A stretch of 64,000 nt of DNA from an uncultured Prevotellaceae bacterium (GTDB taxonomy: Bacteria > Bacteroidota > Bacteroidia > Bacteroidales > Muribaculaceae): NCBI GenBank assembly GCA_900317325.1, contig ONGE01000017.1, forward strand, positions 62,001 through 126,000, read 5' to 3'. Position numbers and translations under genes: made by a program. Below the pieces are notes generated by a model, which had not been told where the DNA came from, did no database searches, and worked only from the letters and a program-made list of their open reading frames with translations. Shown in pieces: positions 3,292 through 61,632 of the stretch; within the stretch, counting starts at the first letter, position 1; the number at the start of each line of letters is the position of its first letter.

Positions 3292-3299
3292 CTTGAAGG

Positions 3300-3424
3300 T
3301 TAGAGGTTAAAGTTTAGAGTTTAGAGAAGAGAGAAGAAAAATTTTTCGATTTTTTTTATTTTTTTGCACGCATGCAGCTAATGTCAGATTTCTCTGAACT
3401 CTAACTAACTCTAAACCTCAAGGT
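3300..3424. repeat. YTAR heptad repeats facing each other
   Basis: The left arm (3300-3328) contains TTAG or TTAA units every seven bases, as in GTTTAGAGTTTAGAG. The right arm (about 3391-3424) carries the reverse-complement form CTAAC/CTAAAC. A T-rich tract and a CATGCAGC segment lie between them. The two arms can pair imperfectly. The first gene downstream starts at 3504. Confidence 0.7.
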
Positions 3425-3503: not shown

Positions 3504-5658
3504 ATGAAAAGATTCTCTCTTATCCTTGCAGCGATGATGTTGCTGGGTTGCGGCACGATGAGTGCTTGGCAGGGTGACGTTACCGTGCAAACCCCTAACA
3601 CCCAGCTGGTGCTGCACGCCTATGAGGGCGGCGACCTGCGCATGGGCTACTACGGCAACAAGAGCGCCACACTGCAGCAACTGCGTGACGGTGGTGCCGA
3701 CCTTAACTTCTCGGCATTGCCCGCATTCGGCACCGTGGACGCCATCCAGCGACCTGAACCTTGAGCTCAAGGTCACCGACTACCAGACGAGCAGCGACGA
3801 CCGTTCGCAGCTTCACGTTTTCACGATGACCGACAAACTGCTGCCCGTCACAGTGAAAGTGTTCTATAAAGCCTACCGCAACGTGGACGTGATCGAGACT
3901 TGGACCGAAATCTCTCACAAGGAGAAACGTGCCATCACGCTCAAGCGCTTCGATTCGGGCCACCTGACACTGCGCCAGGGCGACGTGTGGATCAGCCACC
4001 TGCACGGCAACTGGGCCGCCGAGACCGAACCCACGACCGAGCCGCTCACCCAAGGCCTGAAGACCATCCGCAACACCGACGGCGCCCGCAACTCGCACCT
4101 GGACGCTCCCGAGCTGATGATTTCGCTCGACGGTGAGCCACAGGAGACCACGGGTCGCGTCATTGCTGCCATCCTGTGCTGGAGCGGCAACTACGAACTC
4201 CGCATCAACACCACAGGCCATCGTCAGCACCAGTTCTACGCCGGTATCGACCCGATGTCGTCGGAATATGTGCTCGAGCCCAACGAACTCTTTGAGACGC
4301 CGCATCTGGCTCTCGCCTACTCCGAGGACGGCCTGGGAGGTGCCAGCCGCACCATCCATCGCTGGGCACGCACCGAGGGCATGTTCCACCGTGGCATGAA
4401 CACGGGCGACATCCTGCTCAACTCGTGGGAAGGCGTCGTGTTTGACATCAAGGAGGAAACCATGATCAACATGATGGACGACATCGCCAAGTTCGGCGGC
4501 GAGCTGTTCGTGATGGACGATGGCTGGTTTGGCGACAAGTATCCCCGCAACAACGACTCCTCGTCGTTGGGCGACTGGGTGGTTGACAAGCGCAAACTGC
4601 CCGGCGGCATCAGCACGCTCACCCAGGCGGCCCGTCAGCGCGGCATCAAGTTCGGCATCTGGATTGAGCCCGAGATGTGCAACACCGTGAGTGAGCTCTA
4701 CGAGAAACACCCCGACTGGATGCTCCAGACCAAAGGTCGCGAACTCAAACAGGGGCGTGGCGGCACACAGGTGGTGCTCGACCTTACCAACCCCAAGGTG
4801 CAGGACTTCATCTTCGGCATCGTGGACAACCTGATGACGCAGAACCCCGACATCGCTTATATCAAGTGGGATGCCAATGCCTCGATTCAGAACTACGGCT
4901 CGTTATACCTGCCCAAGAACAAGCAGAACAACATCTCCATCCTGTGGCACCGCGGACTCCTCAACGTGCTCAAGCGCATCCGCGCCAAGTACCCTGACCT
5001 GGTGATTCAAGACTGTGCCTCGGGTGGTGGCCGTGCCAACTATGGCCTACTGCCCTACTTCGACGAGTTCTGGGTGAGCGACAACAACGATGCCCTGCAG
5101 CGCGTTTATATCCAGTACGGCACCTCCTACTTCTTCCCTGCCAACGCGATGGCACAGCACATCGGCGGCTCTCCTTACTGGAATACGGGCGGCCGTGTCA
5201 TCCCCATCAAGTTCCGCTGCGACGTGGCCATGAGCGGCCGTCTGGGCATGGAGCTGCAACCGCGGCACATGAGCCAGGAGGAACACGACCAGTGCACCCA
5301 GGCGTTTGCCGACTACAAGTTGCTGCGCCCCGTCGTGCAGACCGGCAACCTCTATCGTCTGATTTCGCCATACAACCGCAGGGGCGTCTCGTCCATCATG
5401 TTCAGCAACGATGCGATGGACCATGCCGTGTGGTTCGTCTACAAGGTTGACAACTATGTTGACCAGCCACTGCCGCGCATCCAGCTTGCGGGCCTTGACC
5501 CTGATCGCAGTTACACCCTCACCGAGCGCAACGTCAAGGTGGGCCAAAAGCCGTGCGAACTCAACGGCAAGACCTTCACCGGCCGCTTCCTGATGGACAT
5601 CGGTCTTGAAGTGCCCCTGGCTAGCGACTACGCCAGCCGCATCTTCGAACTGAGATAA
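3504..5658 (+). pseudogene. GH36 alpha-galactosidase, frameshifted near the N-terminus
   Basis: The first frame (3504-3766) starts with a signal peptide (MKRFSLILAAMMLLGCG) and runs 86 residues into the N-terminal beta-sandwich, ending shortly after PAFGTVDA. The second frame is open through the same area and carries the rest from about 3755 (SSDLNLELKVTDYQ) to 5658. It contains the GH36 core: DDGWFG, the nucleophile region IAYIKWDANASIQ and the acid/base region FWVSDNNDALQR. All catalytic elements survive. Related enzymes have extra residues between the AFG motif and the following strand, so the lesion looks like a short frameshifting deletion rather than a single-base slip, although a sequencing error remains possible. 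If intact, the enzyme would remove alpha-galactosyl branches from galactomannan. It lies between the phosphorylase and the GH26 mannanase. Confidence 0.75.
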
Positions 5659-6113
5659 AGAATTAGGAATTAGAAATTAGAAATTAGAAATTAGGAGTTA
5701 GGAATTAGGAATTAGGAATTAGGAGTTAGGAATTAGGAATTAGGAGTTAGGAATTAACTAGGGACTAAGGACTAAGGACTAGGGACTAGAAACTAGGGAC
5801 TAAGGACTAAGGACTAAGGACTAAGGACTAAGGACTAGGGACTAGGGACTAAGGACTAAGGACTAAGGACTAAGGACTAAGGACTAAGGACTAGGGACTA
5901 GGGACTAAGGACTAAGGACTAAGGACTAGGGACTAAGGACTAAGGACTAGGGACTAAGGACTAAGGACTAAGGACTAAGGACTAAGGACTAAGGACTAGG
6001 GACTAAGGACTAAGGACTAAGGACTAAGGACTAGGGACTAAGGACTAAGGACTAAGGACTAAGGACTAAGGACTAAGGACTAGAAACTAGGGACTAAGGA
6101 CTAGGGACTAAAA
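5659..6113. repeat. Long array of seven-base tandem repeats (about 65 units)
   Basis: The spacer between the alpha-galactosidase and mannanase genes is almost entirely tandem heptads. The first part (to about 5756) is GAATTAG/AAATTAG/GAGTTAG; the rest is GGACTAA, GGACTAG and a few GAAACTAG variants. All share the core YTAR, so each unit carries TAA or TAG on both strands. Because seven is not a multiple of three, all six frames are stopped within 21 bases. There are no spacers, so this is not CRISPR. Confidence 0.97.
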
Positions 6114-6125
6114 AACAACAAAAAA

Positions 6126-7283
6126 ATGAAAATGATGAAACCAAGACTGTTGCTCATCGCCCTGCTGTTTTTCTTTTGCGCATCACAAGCTGGAGCCCGT
6201 GTACCCAAAGTTGAGAAAACCCCGGCGCAAAAGCTGATTGAGCGCCTCGCCAAGCTGCAGAAGCGCGGCATCATGTACGGCCATCAGGACGACCCCTTCT
6301 ATGGCATCACCTGGGAGTGGGAGCAGGGCCGTTCGGACACCTATGACCTCGTGGGCGACTACCCTGGCGTGATGGGCTTTGACCTGGGCGGCATCGAGAT
6401 GGGCGACGACAAGAACCTGGATTCGGTACCGTTCAATTGGATTCGTGAAGAAATCATCAAGCACCACGAGCGTGGCGGTATCGTGACGCTGTCATGGCAT
6501 CCGCGCAATCCCATGCTGGGCACCACCGCCTGGATTGAGAGCGACATCAAGTCGTTTGAGGCAGCAAAGCCTTATCTCGAGAAGACCGGTCAGCTCGGTC
6601 TTGTCCTCGACCCCAAGAGCACGGTCAGGGAGATTCTGCCCGGCGGCAAGGGCCACAGCAAGTTCATGACTTGGCTCCAACGTGTCGAGGCGTTCATCCT
6701 CTCGCTCACCGACAAGGACGGCCGTCCCGTTCCTGTCATCTTCCGTCCCTGGCATGAGTACAACGGCGGATGGTTCTGGTGGGGCAAGGGCAATTGCACC
6801 GACGAGGAGTTCCTGCGCCTGTGGAATCTTACCCAAAACTACCTCAACAAGAGCCTGTCCTCGTCCATCGTGTGGAGTTGCTCGCCCAACTTGGGTGTCG
6901 ATCCGCAGGAATTCTATAACCGCTGGCCCGGTGACGAGCGTGTTGATTTGCTGGGTCTTGACGCCTATCAGTGGGGCACCGAAGAGGATTTTGTCAAGCA
7001 GTGTAATGCCGATATGGACTTCCTGGACGCCTATGCCCGGGAGCACGGCCTGCTGCTGGCATTCACCGAGTGCGGCTACAAGAATTCGCCCGATGCCACC
7101 TGGTGGAGCCGCGTGTTGCTGCCCATCATGGAGAAGCACCATCCCTGCTATTTCCTGCCGTGGCGCAACTTCAAGCGTGAGCACTTCGGCGCAGCGCCTG
7201 GCCTGGCCACAGCCGATGATTTCAAGCAGATGGCCAAGGCCAAGAAAATCCTCTTTGTCAAGGACATCAAGAAGGTGAAATAG
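6126..7283 (+). CDS. GH26 endo-beta-1,4-mannanase, secreted
   Basis: This 385-residue secreted glycoside hydrolase has a signal peptide (residues 1-24, hydrophobic LLLIALLFFFCASQAGA) followed by a single GH26 domain. The acid/base Glu is E211 in RPWHEYNGGWFWWG and the nucleophile is E315 in LAFTECGY, both classic GH26 motifs. It cleaves internal beta-1,4-mannosyl bonds. There is no lipobox, so it is periplasmic or released rather than a surface lipoprotein. It follows the heptad array, and the next gene starts more than 300 bases later. Its place beside an alpha-galactosidase, epimerase and disaccharide phosphorylase supports mannan breakdown. The stop codon is the first TAG of a heptad array. 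Confidence 0.93.
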   Translation: MKMMKPRLLLIALLFFFCASQAGARVPKVEKTPAQKLIERLAKLQKRGIMYGHQDDPFYGITWEWEQGRSDTYDLVGDYPGVMGFDLGGIEMGDDKNLDSVPFNWIREEIIKHHERGGIVTLSWHPRNPMLGTTAWIESDIKSFEAAKPYLEKTGQLGLVLDPKSTVREILPGGKGHSKFMTWLQRVEAFILSLTDKDGRPVPVIFRPWHEYNGGWFWWGKGNCTDEEFLRLWNLTQNYLNKSLSSSIVWSCSPNLGVDPQEFYNRWPGDERVDLLGLDAYQWGTEEDFVKQCNADMDFLDAYAREHGLLLAFTECGYKNSPDATWWSRVLLPIMEKHHPCYFLPWRNFKREHFGAAPGLATADDFKQMAKAKKILFVKDIKKVK

Positions 7284-7312
7284 TTAACAGATAACAGTTA
7301 ACAGTTATTCCA
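7281..7312. repeat. Short YTAR heptad array (GTTAACA family)
   Basis: Units GTTAACA, GATAACA, GTTAACA and GTTATTC follow each other every seven bases. The TAG stop of the mannanase gene starts the array. Confidence 0.8.
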
Positions 7313-18682: not shown

Positions 18683-18732
18683 TAAGGGTCCTTAAGGACC
18701 TTAAAGACCTTAAGGACCTTAAAGACCCTAAA
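18683..18732 (+). repeat. Nine-base tandem repeat forming a hairpin
   Basis: GGACCTTAA/AGACCTTAA alternate in tandem, flanked by GGGTCC and GACCCT, so the segment can fold on itself. It ends in an A-rich run just before the next start. It may attenuate read-through from cbiK into the second receptor gene. Confidence 0.7.
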
Positions 18733-23584: not shown

Positions 23585-25347
23585 CCGTCATCAACATCAG
23601 CGAGGAGAGCCGAAAATTGGCTGAAACCCTCCAACAAGAGTTCCAAGCCTTGGTCATCAAACGTGCCGAGGTCGCCAACCGATGGAAAGACTTTGATGCC
23701 TTCATCTTTATCGGAGCAATGGGCATCTGTGTGCGCACAATAGCGCCATTGATTACCGACAAGCACGAGGACCCGGCCGTCATCTGTGTGGACAGCATGG
23801 GGCTGCATGCAGTGTCGGTTTTGTCGGGTCATGTGGGCGGTGCCAATGACTTGACGCACAATGTGGCGGCAGTCTTGGGTGCCGATCCCGTGATTACCAC
23901 CCAGAGCGATAATGCCGGGCTGTGGGCGCTTGACACGCTGGAAAAACGCTTCAACTGGCCTATCGCCAGCGAGGACGACATGAACGCGTGCATCTTCGCT
24001 TTTGTCAACCGCAAGCCTACGGCTTTGTTCATGGAGGTGCGTGACAAGGGCACCGATTATCTGGAAAAGACCCTACCCGACCACGTCACCATCATCGACG
24101 ACCTCAGCGAGGCCGATCCCAAGAAATACAGTTTGCTCATCATGGTCACGCCTTTCCGCCGCTACGCTCCGGATGGGATGTTGTCGTTGCACTTTGTGCC
24201 CATGGTGGGCACCATCGGCTTTGGCTTGGCTCATCACCCCGACGACTACAAGTTCATCTATGACCAGATGGACGAGGTCCTTGCAGAATGGGGCATCCTG
24301 CCGTGTGCTTGCCGTTACTGCACGATTGATGTCAAGGCCGACGAGCCGTTTGTGCATCTGTTGAAAGACGGCTATGACGAGGAAGTTGAATTCTTTACAG
24401 CCGAGCAATTGGCAACCGTTGAGGTGCCCAATCCCAGCGACACCGTAGCCAAGCATGTGGGAACTCCCAGCGTGTGCGAGGCAGCAGCTATCTTGGGCTC
24501 CAATCACGGCAAATTGATAGTTCCCAAAATCAAAGGCAAGAATTTTACCGTTGCGCTGGCCATTGACCACAGGCATCTGCGTGACCAGCAAGGTCACATC
24601 GAGATTGTGGGTGCTGGCCCCGGTGACCCGGACCTGGTGTCGGTGCGAGGCCGCAAGATGCTGGAACGGGCCGACCTCATCCTCTATGCGGGTTCGCTTG
24701 TTCCGCGTGAATTGACCTTGTGTGCCAAGCCCGGTGCTGTTGTTCGCAGTTCGGCGGGCATGAATCTTGAAGAGCAATGCGCGTTGATGAAGGAGTTCTA
24801 TGACCAGGGTAAATTCATCGTGCGCCTGCACACGGGCGACCCATGCATCTTCGGAGCCATACAGGAGCAGATGGCCTTCTTTGACCAGCACGACATGCAC
24901 TATCACATCACGCCGGGCATCTCGTCGTTCCTGGCCGCAGCAGCCGAGTTGCGCAGCCAGTTCACCATCCCCGAGCGCACCCAGACCATCATCCTGACCC
25001 GTGGCGAGGGCCGCACGCCCATGCCCGAGAAGGAGCAGTTGCACTTGCTGGCCCGCAGCCAGAGCACGATGTGCATCTTCCTGAGTGCCGCCATCGTGGA
25101 TGACGTTCAGCGCGAATTGCTCACGGAATACCCCGAGGACACGCCCGTCGCCGCCTGTTACCACCTCACCTGGCCTGACCAGCGCATCTACCGCGGCGTG
25201 CTCAAAGACCTTGCCAAGATTGTCCACGACAACAACCTCACGTTGACCACGATGCTCGTTGTGGGCGAGGCCATCGACAACCGCAAGGGCTTGTCGGAAC
25301 TATATAACAAACATTTCACACATCTTTTCCGTAAAGGGGAGGAATAG
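23572..25347 (+). CDS. cbiGF: CbiG-CbiF fusion: cobalt-precorrin-5A hydrolase and precorrin-4 C11-methyltransferase
   Basis: This protein has 591 residues. Residues 1-340 are CbiG (FIFIGAMGICVRTIAPLI, SVLSGHVGGANDL, IGFGLAHHPDD, then CEAAAILGSNHG), which opens the delta-lactone in the oxygen-independent route. Residues about 345-590 are CobM/CbiF (IEIVGAGPGDPDLVSVRG, LYAGSLVPRELT, RLHTGDPCIFGA, ITPGISSFLAAAA), which methylates C11. The presence of CbiG together with CbiD marks the anaerobic pathway. The gene starts inside cbiET. Its TAG stop is the first unit of a heptad array. Confidence 0.95.
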   Translation: MQKIAVINISEESRKLAETLQQEFQALVIKRAEVANRWKDFDAFIFIGAMGICVRTIAPLITDKHEDPAVICVDSMGLHAVSVLSGHVGGANDLTHNVAAVLGADPVITTQSDNAGLWALDTLEKRFNWPIASEDDMNACIFAFVNRKPTALFMEVRDKGTDYLEKTLPDHVTIIDDLSEADPKKYSLLIMVTPFRRYAPDGMLSLHFVPMVGTIGFGLAHHPDDYKFIYDQMDEVLAEWGILPCACRYCTIDVKADEPFVHLLKDGYDEEVEFFTAEQLATVEVPNPSDTVAKHVGTPSVCEAAAILGSNHGKLIVPKIKGKNFTVALAIDHRHLRDQQGHIEIVGAGPGDPDLVSVRGRKMLERADLILYAGSLVPRELTLCAKPGAVVRSSAGMNLEEQCALMKEFYDQGKFIVRLHTGDPCIFGAIQEQMAFFDQHDMHYHITPGISSFLAAAAELRSQFTIPERTQTIILTRGEGRTPMPEKEQLHLLARSQSTMCIFLSAAIVDDVQRELLTEYPEDTPVAACYHLTWPDQRIYRGVLKDLAKIVHDNNLTLTTMLVVGEAIDNRKGLSELYNKHFTHLFRKGEE

Positions 25348-25508
25348 TCCCTAGTCCTTAGTCCCTAGTTTCTAGTTGCCATCCGGACAGTAAAAACTAA
25401 GGACTAAAGACCAAAAACTAGGGACTAGGGACTAGAAACTAAGGACTAAAGACCAAAAACTAGGGACTAGGGACTAGAAACTAAGGACTAAGGACTAGAA
25501 ACTAAGAC
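25345..25508. repeat. YTAR heptad array with 42-bp higher-order repeat and GCCATCCGG core
   Basis: The left arm TAGTCCCTAGTCCTTAG reads towards GCCATCCGG (25378-25386). The right arm is in the opposite sense (ACTAAGG, ACTAAAG, ACCAAAA, ACTAGGG, ACTAGGG, ACTAGAA). That run of six heptads, 42 bases, is repeated exactly once. The array starts with the cbiGF stop codon and ends at the cbiJD ATG. Confidence 0.92.
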
Positions 25509-27263: not shown

Positions 27264-28285
27264 GAGGTTTTGCGGCGGCGGTAGAGGACGTAGATAATGA
27301 TAGGGGCGCCGATGAGGGCGGTGACGCTGTTGACAGGCATGGCTCCCTCAAAGCCGGGAGCACGGGCAATCAGGTTACAGATTAAGGCCAAGGCTGCGCC
27401 GCACAGGGCGGTGGCGGGCATCAACTTCCAGTGGTCGCTGGTGCGGAAGATACCGCGAGCCAGATGGGGCACGGCCATACCAATGAACATGATGGGGCCG
27501 CAATAGGCGGTTACGATGGCGACCAGCGTTCCCGAGCAGATGATGATCCAAGTGCGGGCCCGCTTGACGTTCACACCCAGATTGGCAGCATAGCGGTCGC
27601 CGAGCAGCATGGCATTCAGGGGCTTCACCAGCAGGAAACTCAGGGGCAGCAGGATGCACATGAGCACAACAAAAAGAATCATCTGGTCACCCGACACGCG
27701 GGAGAACGAGCCGAGTCCCCAAACCACGAAGGCCTTGACATCTTCCTCGGGACTGAGGAACTTCAAAACGCCGATGATGGCGGTGGCAAGGTAGCCGATC
27801 ATCACACCGATAATCAGCAAGGTGACGTTACCGCGCACCTTGCCCGAAATCCACACAATCAGCATCATCACAGCGATGGCACCGATGATGGCGGCAATCG
27901 AGACCGCCGCGTCACCCAGGTAGCCCAAGGAACTCAAGGCCACGCCTCCCAGCTGTCCCGACAGCAACACGACGAAAGCCACACCCAGGCTGGCACCATT
28001 GGAGATACCCAAGATGGACGGGCCCGCCAAGGGGTTGTGGAAGATGGTCTGCATCATCAGGCCGCTCACGGCAAGTCCCGCTCCCGCCACGATGGCGGTG
28101 AGCACCTGAGGCAGACGCGAACTGAGGATAATATTCGTCCAAATCTCGGACTCGCTGCCCTGCCCTATCAAGATACGACAGATGTCGCCCACCGGAATCT
28201 CAATCGAACCGATGAACAGGTTGACAATCACCATCACGGCGATGACTACCACAAGGGCCAACATCAAAGGCAGCGTTCGTCTCAT
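27254..28285 (-). CDS. btuC: FecCD/BtuC-type ABC transporter permease
   Basis: This 343-residue inner-membrane permease has about ten hydrophobic segments. Family hallmarks are the SRLPQVLTAIVAGAGLAVSGLMMQ motif region (ILSSRLPQVLTA), NPLAGPSILGISNGASLG and, near the C-terminus, FIGMAVPHLARGIF with the coupling-helix Gly and His. It would move corrinoid or siderophore across the inner membrane. It sits 119 bases downstream of the binding-protein gene on the same strand, and the cobalamin setting favours BtuC. No ATPase (BtuD) gene follows; its 3' end instead overlaps cbiJD. Confidence 0.9.
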   Translation of the reverse strand: MRRTLPLMLALVVVIAVMVIVNLFIGSIEIPVGDICRILIGQGSESEIWTNIILSSRLPQVLTAIVAGAGLAVSGLMMQTIFHNPLAGPSILGISNGASLGVAFVVLLSGQLGGVALSSLGYLGDAAVSIAAIIGAIAVMMLIVWISGKVRGNVTLLIIGVMIGYLATAIIGVLKFLSPEEDVKAFVVWGLGSFSRVSGDQMILFVVLMCILLPLSFLLVKPLNAMLLGDRYAANLGVNVKRARTWIIICSGTLVAIVTAYCGPIMFIGMAVPHLARGIFRTSDHWKLMPATALCGAALALICNLIARAPGFEGAMPVNSVTALIGAPIIIYVLYRRRKTSYE

Positions 28286-28289
28286 ACTC

Positions 28290-28396
28290 TTTTTAGTTTC
28301 TAGTCCTTAGTCCTTAGTCCTTAGTCCTTAGTCCTTAGTCCCTAGTTTCTAGATATTCTAGATTTTCTAGAACTCCTAACTTCTAACTCCTAACTA
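28290..28396. repeat. YTAR heptad array (TTAGTCC and TAACTTC families)
   Basis: Tandem TTAGTCC units pass through TTTCTAGA-like bases into CTAACTTCTAACTCCTAAC units, all with a seven-base period. It fills the spacer between btuF and btuC. Confidence 0.9.
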
Positions 28397-29628: not shown

Positions 29629-30411
29629 ATGGAAGAAACAGCAGTAAAAACAAGGTGGTATGACAACATTTGGGCAGCGTTGATTTTCTTCACGCGGCTG
29701 CCTTTCTGGCGTGTCTATCAACCCCCACAATCAAGTTATAAAGCAGTTGTTGAGTTCTGGCCCTTGACAGGCTGGCTAACAGGTGGCGCGATGGCTGCGA
29801 CACTCTACTTCGGCAGCATGGTGTTCCCGTGGGCCGTTACTGTTATCGCCGCGATAGTCGTGCGCTTGCTGATTACCGGAGCGTTGCATGAAGACGGACT
29901 TGCCGACTTCTTGGATGGCTTCGGTGGCGGTGGTGATCGCAACCGCATCCTGGCCATCATGAAGGATTCGCACATCGGCACCTATGGCGTGCTGGGCCTT
30001 ATCCTCTACCTGTTGTTACTGGGAGCGGCACTCTATAGCATGCCACCGATGATTGCTGCACTCACTGTCTGTGCCGCCGACCCGTTCTCCAAAATGGTTT
30101 CCAGCCAGCTGGTGAATATGCTGCCCTATGCCCGTCGTGAGGAAGAAGCCAAGAACAAGGCCATTTATCGCAAACCCAGCCTGGCAGCCGGACTGTGCCT
30201 GACTGTCCAAGGATTACTGCCAATGGCATTGTTGATTTGGCTGACGAGCATCAACTGGCTTTACTTAATCGCTATACCTCCCCTGGTAATGTATTTCCTG
30301 TACTTGCTCATGCTGCGCAAGATTAAGGGGTACACCGGCGACTGCTGCGGCGCCGTGTGCCTGCTGGTGGAACTCTCGGTATATCTCATCACCTGCTCGC
30401 AACAGCTATAA
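29629..30411 (+). CDS. cobS: Adenosylcobinamide-GDP ribazoletransferase
   Basis: This 260-residue integral membrane enzyme joins alpha-ribazole to adenosylcobinamide-GDP, the last step of the nucleotide-loop assembly. Signature segments are LIFFTRLPFWR near the N-terminus, GALHEDGLADFLDGFGGGGDRNRILAIMKDS (acidic metal-binding motif around residues 85-110) and IGTYG. Several hydrophobic helices follow. The ATG at 29629 is chosen because the upstream in-frame codons overlap the promoter element. It heads the set cobS, cobC, cobU, cobT. A heptad array directly follows the stop. Confidence 0.94.
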   Translation: MEETAVKTRWYDNIWAALIFFTRLPFWRVYQPPQSSYKAVVEFWPLTGWLTGGAMAATLYFGSMVFPWAVTVIAAIVVRLLITGALHEDGLADFLDGFGGGGDRNRILAIMKDSHIGTYGVLGLILYLLLLGAALYSMPPMIAALTVCAADPFSKMVSSQLVNMLPYARREEEAKNKAIYRKPSLAAGLCLTVQGLLPMALLIWLTSINWLYLIAIPPLVMYFLYLLMLRKIKGYTGDCCGAVCLLVELSVYLITCSQQL

Positions 30412-30464
30412 TAGTTAACAGTTAACAGAGAACAGTGAACAGTTAATAGAGAACAGTTAAGGGA
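30409..30464. repeat. YTAR heptad array (AGTTAAC family)
   Basis: AGTTAAC, AGTTAAC, AGAGAAC, AGTGAAC, AGTTAAT, AGAGAAC and AGTTAAG follow each other every seven bases between cobS and cobC. Confidence 0.9.
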
Positions 30465-31529: not shown

Positions 31530-31592
31530 ACAGTTCTAGAACATCTAGGGACTAAGGACTAAGGACTAGGGACTAGGGACTAAAGACTAAGA
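31526..31592. repeat. YTAR heptad array
   Basis: AACAGTGAACAG passes into CTAGAACATCTAGGGACTAAGG and further GGACTAA/GGACTAG units, up to 4 bases before the cobT start. Confidence 0.88.
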
Positions 31593-33564: not shown

Positions 33565-33668
33565 GTTTATTGTTTTTAGTTTCTAGTCCTTAGTTGGCAT
33601 CCGCCCACTTCTAACTCATAACTCCTGACTTCTAACTCCTAACTTCTAATAGTTTTTAGTTTAATTAG
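33565..33668. repeat. YTAR heptad array around an exact GGCATCCGCCCAC core
   Basis: TTTCTAGTCCTTAG lies on one side of the 13-mer at 33596-33608, and TTCTAACTCATAACTCC, TAACTCC and TAACTTC units lie on the other. The array reaches the cobD stop codon, which is itself a TAA of the repeat. Confidence 0.9.
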
Positions 33669-36622: not shown

Positions 36623-36655
36623 ATTAGTTTCTAGTCCTTAGTTTCTAGTTGGTAA
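36623..36655. repeat. Short YTAR heptad array that encodes the end of cbiA
   Basis: The heptads TTAGTTTCTAGTCCTTAG run into the gene at 36638. Read on the reverse strand, the bases CCAACTAGAAACTAA give the last codons P-T-R-N and the TAA stop of the cbiA C-terminal part. Confidence 0.85.
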
Positions 36656-58851: not shown

Positions 58852-59307
58852 ATGAAAATTGGAGATAAGATTCCTGAGTTTCTGGGACTTGACCAGAATG
58901 GCAACGAAGTGAAAGCCAGCGACTTTGCCGGCAGAAAGCTCATCATTTACTTCTACCCGAAGGACAATACCCCCGGCTGCACAGCCGAGGCTTGCAGCCT
59001 TTCGACCGGTTACGGCGCACTCAAGCGCGCAGGCTATGCCCTGCTTGGCGTGAGCAAGGACAGCGCTGCCAGCCATCAGAAGTTTGCCGATAAATACAGC
59101 CTGCCTTTCCCGTTGATTGCCGACGTGGACACGACGCTGAACCAGGCCTTCGGCGTGTGGCGCGAGAAGAAGATGGCCGGTCGCACCTACATGGGCACCG
59201 TGCGCACCACCTTCATCATCGATGAACAGGGCGTAGTCACGCACATCATCGAGAAAGTGAACACCAAGGACAGCGCTAACCAGATACTTGAGTTAGTTAA
59301 CAAATAA
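58852..59307 (+). CDS. bcp: Thiol peroxidase Bcp (PrxQ)
   Basis: This 151-residue peroxiredoxin reduces hydroperoxides with electrons from thioredoxin. The peroxidatic Cys is C43 in YPKDNTPGCTAEAC and the resolving Cys is C48, five residues later as in classical Bcp. The length is normal. It has its own promoter. The last codons (GAGTTAGTTAAC) and the following bases have heptad-like sequence. Confidence 0.94.
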   Translation: MKIGDKIPEFLGLDQNGNEVKASDFAGRKLIIYFYPKDNTPGCTAEACSLSTGYGALKRAGYALLGVSKDSAASHQKFADKYSLPFPLIADVDTTLNQAFGVWREKKMAGRTYMGTVRTTFIIDEQGVVTHIIEKVNTKDSANQILELVNK

Positions 59308-59340
59308 GAGTTTAGAGTTTAGAGACAGGAGATAGGAGAT
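59308..59340. repeat. Short YTAR heptad array (GTTTAGA family)
   Basis: AGAGTTT, AGAGTTT, AGAGACA, GGAGATA and GGAGATG are spaced every seven bases between bcp and the peptidase gene. Confidence 0.75.
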
Positions 59341-61514: not shown

Positions 61515-61632
61515 TGAGTTCCCAGTCCCTAGTCCTTAGTTTCTAGTTGGCATCGGCTGCGTTAGCAACTAAGGACTAGGGACCAGAAACTAGGGACCAG
61601 AAACTAGGGACCAGAAACTAAAAACTAAACAA
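61515..61632. repeat. YTAR heptad array around a GGCATCGGC core
   Basis: AGTCCCTAGTCCTTAGTTTCTAG leads to GGCATCGGC (61549-61557). Inverted units ACTAAGG, ACTAGGG, ACCAGAA and ACTAGGG follow up to the miaA start. Confidence 0.9.

Follow-up and report, generated by a model that had tools for sequence, protein, structure and literature searches.

The spacer between a gene stop at 5658 and a gene start at 6126 of the window (the whole 64-kb stretch of DNA that was analyzed) is filled by tandem seven-base repeats, with a GAATTAG array followed by an ACTAAGG array. Heptad arrays had been predicted for eleven spacers of the window, and heptad sequence is present at or beside all 11 of them, the runs at 3300, 36623, and 59308 being short (Table 1). 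Eight lag-7 runs were detected in the window, with none or one for each other period from 4 to 13. The original prediction described units that all contain the motif YTAR. This holds for most of the arrays, but YTAR is found in only one half of six units at 30409 and one third of six at 59298. The statement that the arrays lie directly behind stop codons is true but gives half of the picture, because CTAAGGA-type arrays in the window also end near the next start (array end/ATG 6111/6126, 25506/25509, 31591/31596, and 61629/61633; minus-strand starts at 28285, 33562, and 36622 are close to such arrays).

Table 1. Repeat features, with positions in the window unless another locus is named
Feature	Position	Strand	Relation to genes
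TTAGAGT array, short, degenerate	3297..3337	+	43 nt past a stop
GAATTAG (TTAGGAA) array, 13.9 copies	5660..5756	+	first base 2 nt past gene stop at 5658
ACTAAGG (CTAAGGA) array, 50.7 copies	5757..6111	+	14 nt upstream of ATG 6126
TTAACAG array	7279..7307	+	stop codon 7281-7283 inside overlap
TAGTCCC units, left arm	25345..25377	+	first TAG is stop codon of gene ending at 25347
ACTAAGG units, right arm	25391..25506	+	end 2 nt ahead of ATG 25509
CTAAGGA array (plus strand: TTAGTCC)	28290..28352	-	adjoins minus-strand start 28285
TTAGGAG-type array	28371..28395	-	9 nt past minus-strand stop 28405
TTAACAG/TGAACAG array	30409..30456	+	opens with stop codon TAA 30409-30411
CTAAGGA array	31545..31591	+	directly upstream of ATG 31596
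CTAAGGA-type arm, short	33573..33596	-	near minus-strand start 33562
TTAGGAG-type array	33607..33649	-	past minus-strand stop 33665
CTAGAAA/CTAAGGA run, short	36624..36651	-	spans 15-nt spacer and minus-strand stop 36638-36640
TTAGAGT run, short, degenerate	59298..59340	+	overlaps stop of gene ending at 59307
TAGTCC-type units, left arm	61517..61548	+	2 nt past stop 61514
CTAGGGA-type units, right arm	61568..61629	+	directly upstream of ATG 61633
Nine-base arrays	28347-28371; 18690-18732; L113, E-D junction		
GGCATCCGC hinge	7364; 7413; 22370; 33596		
AACAATAAATACAA ... TTGTATTTATTGTT-like inverted repeat	E-D: L073, L074, L078, L110; F-G: L062, L090; M-J: L060, L062, L074		
Heptads of cobK-like gene	L109 10619-10661; L118 11664-11699; L116 10945-11002		within the gene

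Genes were called with a purpose-written ORF and codon-score script, which gives reliable stops wherever the frame is right and less reliable starts. The array thresholds were set for this analysis at a score of at least 16 for runs and at least 13 for arrays. The window's own genome (3.47 Mb in 44 contigs) was sampled over 853 kb, comprising the window and stretches of five other contigs, and another member of the genus, G033, was sampled over 400 kb. Related loci were taken from uncultured MAGs with a cobK-like protein 75-88% identical; these are labeled Muribaculaceae, Prevotellaceae, Porphyromonadaceae, or Bacteroidales, and several are from ruminants, to judge by their titles. The own genome, G033, and 29 related loci make up the three pooled genus samples, from which L068 was left out because it duplicates the start of G033:C10. 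Shared descent among the related loci makes the pooled counts non-independent; the own genome and G033 are cleaner in this respect.

Period 7 is the commonest short period in the 853 kb of the own genome, with 49 runs scoring at least 16; there were 19 runs of period 9, 12 of period 12, and at most 5 of any other period from 4 to 13. The corresponding counts in 30 related loci (585 kb) were 88 for period 7, 29 for period 9, and one or none for the others. Four tandem copies of CTAANNN are present in 40 of 61 genomes: 30 of the 37 in the genus, counting the own genome, and 10 of the 24 others. The number of matches in a genome ranges from 0 to 412. The heptad observation is real and far above chance. 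Heptad arrays are mostly intergenic: the 70 arrays of the own genome (score at least 13) comprise 48 in co-directional, 11 in convergent, and 6 in divergent spacers, 3 at stretch edges, and 2 called genic, and the 37 arrays of G033 comprise 31, 4, 0, and 2 genic. Per kb of spacer, the density in the own genome is 0.57 for co-directional, 0.39 for convergent, and 0.19 for divergent spacers. Of the 10 arrays that were called genic in the pooled samples, 7 carry stops in all sense frames, suggesting that some of these calls are probably wrong or lie at ORF ends.

The position of the arrays is tied to gene stops, as had been predicted, and a random distribution was not seen. In the pooled, non-independent count, 98 of 171 co-directional heptads overlap the upstream stop or start no more than 3 nt from it, compared with 35.4 expected for random placement within the same spacers. 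This attachment was found for 26 of 48 arrays in the own genome (random 11.3), 23 of 31 in G033 (9.8), and 49 of 92 in the related loci (14.3). Nine-base arrays (nonads) provide a contrast, since only 7 of 62 start within 3 nt of or over the upstream stop (random 6.0), made up of 3 of 18 in the own genome (1.2), 0 of 3 in G033 (0.1), and 4 of 41 in the related loci (4.7). Of the 98 arrays that have a repeated stop core no more than 10 nt from the gene stop, 51 are in phase with that stop, where 14 are expected (own genome 13 of 28, G033 9 of 25, related loci 29 of 45); 17 stop-proximal arrays without such a core were excluded. In 20 of the 51 in-phase cases the array enters the coding sequence, one or two units deep and never more. 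Growth of a 3'-end element by slippage, one of the origins suggested at the outset, fits the position of the arrays, the slippage itself being presumed.

The consensus unit contains YTAR in 62 of 68 intergenic arrays of the own genome (13.5 with shuffled units) and in 23 of 35 of G033 (7.1), and all three sense frames are closed by stops in 67 of 68 and 31 of 35, respectively. The 210 non-genic arrays pooled from the three genus samples include 169 with YTAR, 200 with all-frame sense stops, and 180 with antisense stops. The baseline given by random intergenic 7-mers made circular is 17% for YTAR and 41% for a stop on one given strand. YTAR had been put forward as the defining form, with units of the same period lacking it named as the contrary result. 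Such units make up 41 of the 210 genus arrays, and YTAR is found in 6 of the 29 heptad arrays of Prevotellaceae and other outgroup loci (24 loci, 450 kb) and is absent from the other 23. Among the 41 genus arrays without YTAR, 31 have another sense stop. Because the non-YTAR arrays are mostly sense-closed and the outgroup arrays are mostly non-YTAR, YTAR is a habit of the lineage and no requirement, and the sense stop is the firmer rule within the lineage.

Variation among the 319 units of 42 right arrays is 1.6% at A7, 2.5% at C1, 3.4% at A3, 8.5% at T2, and 22-28% at positions 4-6. In 49 left arrays (235 units) A3 is the least variable position, at 3.0%. The stop is kept in most units, yet other positions are constant too. 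CTAAGGA and CTAGGGA are each found in 19 of the 68 own arrays, whereas CTAAGGA is found in only 2 of 35 in G033, where CTAAAGC, CTAAAAC, and CTAATGC lead. Sharing of unit sets is greater inside a genome than across genomes, and 0 of 2000 permutations reached the within-genome excess. These genome-specific units indirectly support a spread of arrays within the genome, but a genome-specific mutational bias could also explain them.

Arrays of the outgroup loci differ in placement as well as in unit, 14 of the 29 lying inside called genes. Three of these lie in the cobK-like gene, in the Prevotellaceae loci L109, L118, and L116, at variable parts of the alignment, and two of the three encode QLSIVNC-like peptides. 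The orientation of the genic Prevotellaceae heptads keeps the reading frame open. For outgroup arrays in spacers the stop rule holds only weakly: the consensus has all-frame sense stops in 5 of 10 co-directional arrays and none in an array at position 5401 of the Prevotellaceae locus L096, although that array begins at a gene stop. Heptads of other forms are present in other Bacteroidales families, on contigs chosen for a listed array; 181 kb from 11 families, chosen without regard to arrays, contained one heptad array. In a locus of another family (L188, G041:C158, 11082-14844) eleven heptad runs lie within 4 kb and have mixed units, including GTTCAGC, CTAAACG, and GAACCAA.

Our main reading, to which we give a probability of about one half, is that the arrays are genome-specific heptad satellites that lie where genes end, particularly at operon junctions, and that are filtered so that the upstream gene stays terminated at any copy number. 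It draws on observed features of the arrays: position, sense stops, stop overlap, genome-specific unit vocabulary, and spacer-free junctions in relatives. Heptad satellites would grow and spread inside each genome and settle at gene ends, chiefly operon junctions; we infer growth by slippage, spread by copying, and filtering by selection. As the unit is 7 nt long, each copy gained or lost shifts the frame of a gene entering the array. With a stop in the unit, every frame is closed within three copies, and so termination of the upstream gene does not depend on copy number. If every copy has a stop, gain or loss of copies cannot lengthen the protein, and a frame-shifting repeat can live at a gene end. 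The array would often become the upstream gene's own stop. YTAR may be commonest in the genus because it puts TAA or TAG on both strands, making the unit harmless in either orientation. Arrays ahead of the next gene, being A-rich and weakly structured, would suit translation starts in Bacteroidia. Natural contrasts are provided by the frame-neutral nine-base arrays off stops and the Prevotellaceae heptads inside genes. Heptad repeats recur in unrelated bacteria with no accepted reason, and the proposed filter offers a testable one for both unit and position.

Several observations argue against the filter. All-frame sense stops are equally frequent away from gene ends, in 16 of 17 interior and 14 of 15 divergent arrays. 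The filter would not act on stop-bearing arrays at such sites; if it is real, one has to assume that they spread from gene ends. The open co-directional outgroup arrays, the L096 one among them, also count against it, as does the greater variability of T2 of YTAR than of A7, C1, and A3 in right arrays. In the accessible text of PMC4692102, GGGAATC heptads of Xanthomonas are likewise near or over stop codons, although the unit, as we read it, contains no stop. Any period not divisible by 3 would serve, and period 7 itself is thus unexplained by the filter. Of the suggested selection for translation stops, the importance of stops in the arrays themselves is supported by their sense-closed units and in-phase gene stops, but a general selection in the DNA behind genes is not supported. 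Spacers of 60-400 nt without arrays have no excess of stops in their first 40 nt relative to dinucleotide shuffles, all frames being closed in 25 of 194 in the own genome (shuffles 22.6) and in 7 of 81 in G033 (8.9). On this basis we rejected the idea that closure of every frame behind genes is selected for at large.

Neutral slippage alone would have heptads growing in non-coding DNA, with a unit that mirrors AT-rich, stop-rich spacers and with no filter. This would be in keeping with the rarity of genic arrays, with the drift of units between species, with the stop found on a given strand in 41% of circularized random intergenic 7-mers, and with the heptad bias known from other genomes (accessible text of PMC4679880). 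We consider it distinctly unlikely in view of the sense stops in 200 of 210 arrays and of the attachment to stop codons, which is absent from nonads of the same spacers.

The original prediction knew of no such consensus, and no YTAR-type heptad family was found among the papers listed by our searches of the openly licensed literature for Bacteroidales heptads, but the kind itself is known. The nearest known relative of the window heptads is the TAACTGA repeats of Beggiatoaceae. According to the accessible text of MacGregor 2015 (PMC4679880), these direct repeats occur in marine Beggiatoaceae, some cyanobacteria, and five Bacteroidetes, with copy numbers that reach 43 in some Bacteroidetes and cyanobacteria. 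As described there, they resemble the arrays here in being intergenic heptad arrays with the three forward frames closed, some lying over the upstream stop. Forward TAACTGA arrays overlap the gene end by at most 18 nt in that text, and MacGregor's argument equals the stop-limited overlap here. The TAACTGA repeats, in the same account, are mostly near start codons and consist of a single unit without YTAR and with an open reverse strand, whereas the heptads here are tied more to stops than to starts and have many units per genome, stops usually on both strands, and inverted arms. TAACTGA is absent among the consensus units listed and the leading units of the arrays here. Beyond the TAACTGA-like kind, the arrays draw on a larger set of genome-specific units and are clearly attached to stop codons.

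The STRR heptanucleotide repeats of cyanobacteria have several heptad units per genome, as do the arrays here, a likeness by description. Three heptanucleotides are mentioned for Calothrix in the accessible text of PMC4692102. The same text (Rehm et al. 2015) reports GGGAATC and GGGGA(T/C)T heptamers in Xanthomonas and Nostoc that are similar to the arrays here in period, in lying mostly between co-directional genes, in being rare in coding and divergent regions, and in being often near or over stop codons; those of Xanthomonas are often inverted pairs. Unlike the arrays here, they are described as G-rich and quadruplex-forming, and the unit reads without a stop codon. The leading units here contain at most a single GGG (CTAGGGA) and, judged by sequence, would not count as G-quadruplex-type units. 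A minisatellite inside a MITE of Porphyromonas gingivalis (accessible text of PMC4596501) is comparable by description, in that tandem repeats of a member of the Bacteroidales are tied to an inverted-repeat element. The arrays of the window showed no MITE ends.

On the start side, the 59 array-preceded starts are A-enriched in the last 20 nt compared with 693 others, with A at -3 in 66% versus 38%, and the median MFE of the 33-nt start region is 0.0 versus -1.5 kcal/mol. The accessible text of PMC6847099 reports that adenines at -3, -6, -12, and -13 together with low structure favor initiation in Flavobacterium johnsoniae, and states that Shine-Dalgarno sequences are missing from Bacteroidetes. 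For this reason, and as relatives have CTAACAA or CTAAAAA at the same place, a Shine-Dalgarno role for the AAGGA of CTAAGGA was set aside. A phase lock to the start codon was rejected: A peaks at -3, -10, and -17 were seen over the 59 starts, but the profile was flat in the own genome (21 starts) and G033 (12 starts), and the peaks probably come from orthologous spacers. By analogy with a proposal made for the TAACTGA repeats, the arrays might contain a putative site for a translational or RNA-binding regulator ahead of starts. Arrays do adjoin starts, A7-C1-T2-A3 are most constant there, and 33 of 92 arrays in the related loci end within 3 nt of a start (random 14.3). However, the same closeness is hardly above random in the own genome (15 of 48 arrays, random 11.3) and not above it in G033 (10 of 31, 9.8), sister species differ in unit at the same junction, and the phase to ATG is flat, making a regulator site very unlikely. 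The passages of PMC11697453 on RbpB yielded no short motif for comparison with the heptads.

The RNA of positions 5650-6140 folds with a z-score of -12.6, and the cores of its two arrays pair. A z-score below -2 was obtained for 70 of 116 orthologous spacers, a set that includes other palindromic classes, versus 5 of 100 coding controls. These values are consistent with an RNA fold-back, a possible form of the RNA signal suggested at the outset, in which left TTAG and right CTAA arrays pair and a hairpin reaching from stop to start protects or separates parts of the transcript, a role that palindromes between genes are able to play. Heptads would then be one interchangeable type of palindromic spacer, and the other spacer classes at the same junctions are indeed inverted repeats. 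Single-armed arrays are nevertheless unstructured (for example, 0.0 kcal/mol at the B-K junction of L113), and arms from the same spacer pair only slightly better than swapped arms overall (57 of 5000) and not significantly so in the own genome alone (515 of 5000). The fold-back is therefore possible but unlikely. A self-complementary core (4+3, 6+3) looked attractive as a general rule because periods 7 and 9 stand out. It was rejected, since heptad units are no more self-complementary than shuffled ones and arm pairing is only slight. The rule may hold for nonads, whose units are more self-complementary than shuffled ones, with 3 or 4 pairs in 47 of 62 (33 expected).

The history of the spacers can be followed at junctions around the cobK-like gene. 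B-K, E-D, H-I, and P-O are 4-nt ATGA overlaps in the distant Muribaculaceae loci L082, L084, and L086, and the overlap at B-K and E-D is also common among Prevotellaceae. The window's clade has mostly spacers of up to 240 nt, with the overlap kept by some members at B-K and by L113 at P-O; one-to-eight-nt spacers are also found at F-G. The stop of gene B is the TGA within ATGA in overlapping relatives and is a TAG, the first array unit, in the window and ten related loci. Spacer content changes quickly, with minima of 18, 17, 14, 15, 11, and 6 class changes at six junctions on a 35-row tree without L061, L076, L083, and L085 and with L063 set by hand to 'overlap' at B-K. The classes are coarse and follow our own pattern rules: heptads, TCTAGA nonads, CTTAAG nonads, GAGACGCAAAATTTTGCGTCTC palindromes, and other inverted repeats. 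Recombination between species likely contributes, so not every spacer change is a new insertion. Gene pairs that overlap in relatives may be translationally coupled there (overlapping genes are the subject of PMC6728339, to judge from its accessible text). Fast-changing spacers that part such pairs matter for the reading of operons in uncultured gut Bacteroidales.

We tentatively raise a wider reading, which we think is probably not correct as a whole, in which the operon junction acts as a slot. In the window's clade, pairs joined by an ATGA overlap in distant relatives would have moved apart, and the gap would be filled anew in each species from a few interchangeable parts, namely stop-bearing heptads in either orientation, TCTAGA and CTTAAG nonads, the GGCATCCGC hinge, and other palindromes. 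Coupling would give way to a modular linker that closes every frame on its left side and offers an A-rich, mostly open leader on its right.

The inverted heptad arms on either side of a hinge could also be short palindromes mobilized by a transposase. The inverted arms with their recurring GGCATCCGC hinge (26 TTGGCATCCG sites), the spacer-free junctions in relatives, and a single match to a Y1 transposase (PF01797) in the own genome (G000:C29:78390-78728, L121) would be compatible with this. However, neither fixed ends nor a target-site duplication was seen on reading the junctions, and the hinge joins unrelated arms; a transposon-borne origin is hardly credible.

The GGCATCCGC hinge lies mid-spacer in many spacers and joins arms of different repeat classes, the 26 TTGGCATCCG sites being those of the own genome. 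The nonads have units made of a six-base palindrome and three further bases (TCTAGA+3, CTTAAG+3); they occur in the spacers that also hold heptads, but lie off stops. Palindromes of the GAGACGCAAAATTTTGCGTCTC type fill heptad junctions in relatives, B-K in L059, L071, and L078 and M-J in L071 and L072. The AACAATAAATACAA ... TTGTATTTATTGTT-like inverted repeat has a similar form at several junctions, as if copied between them.
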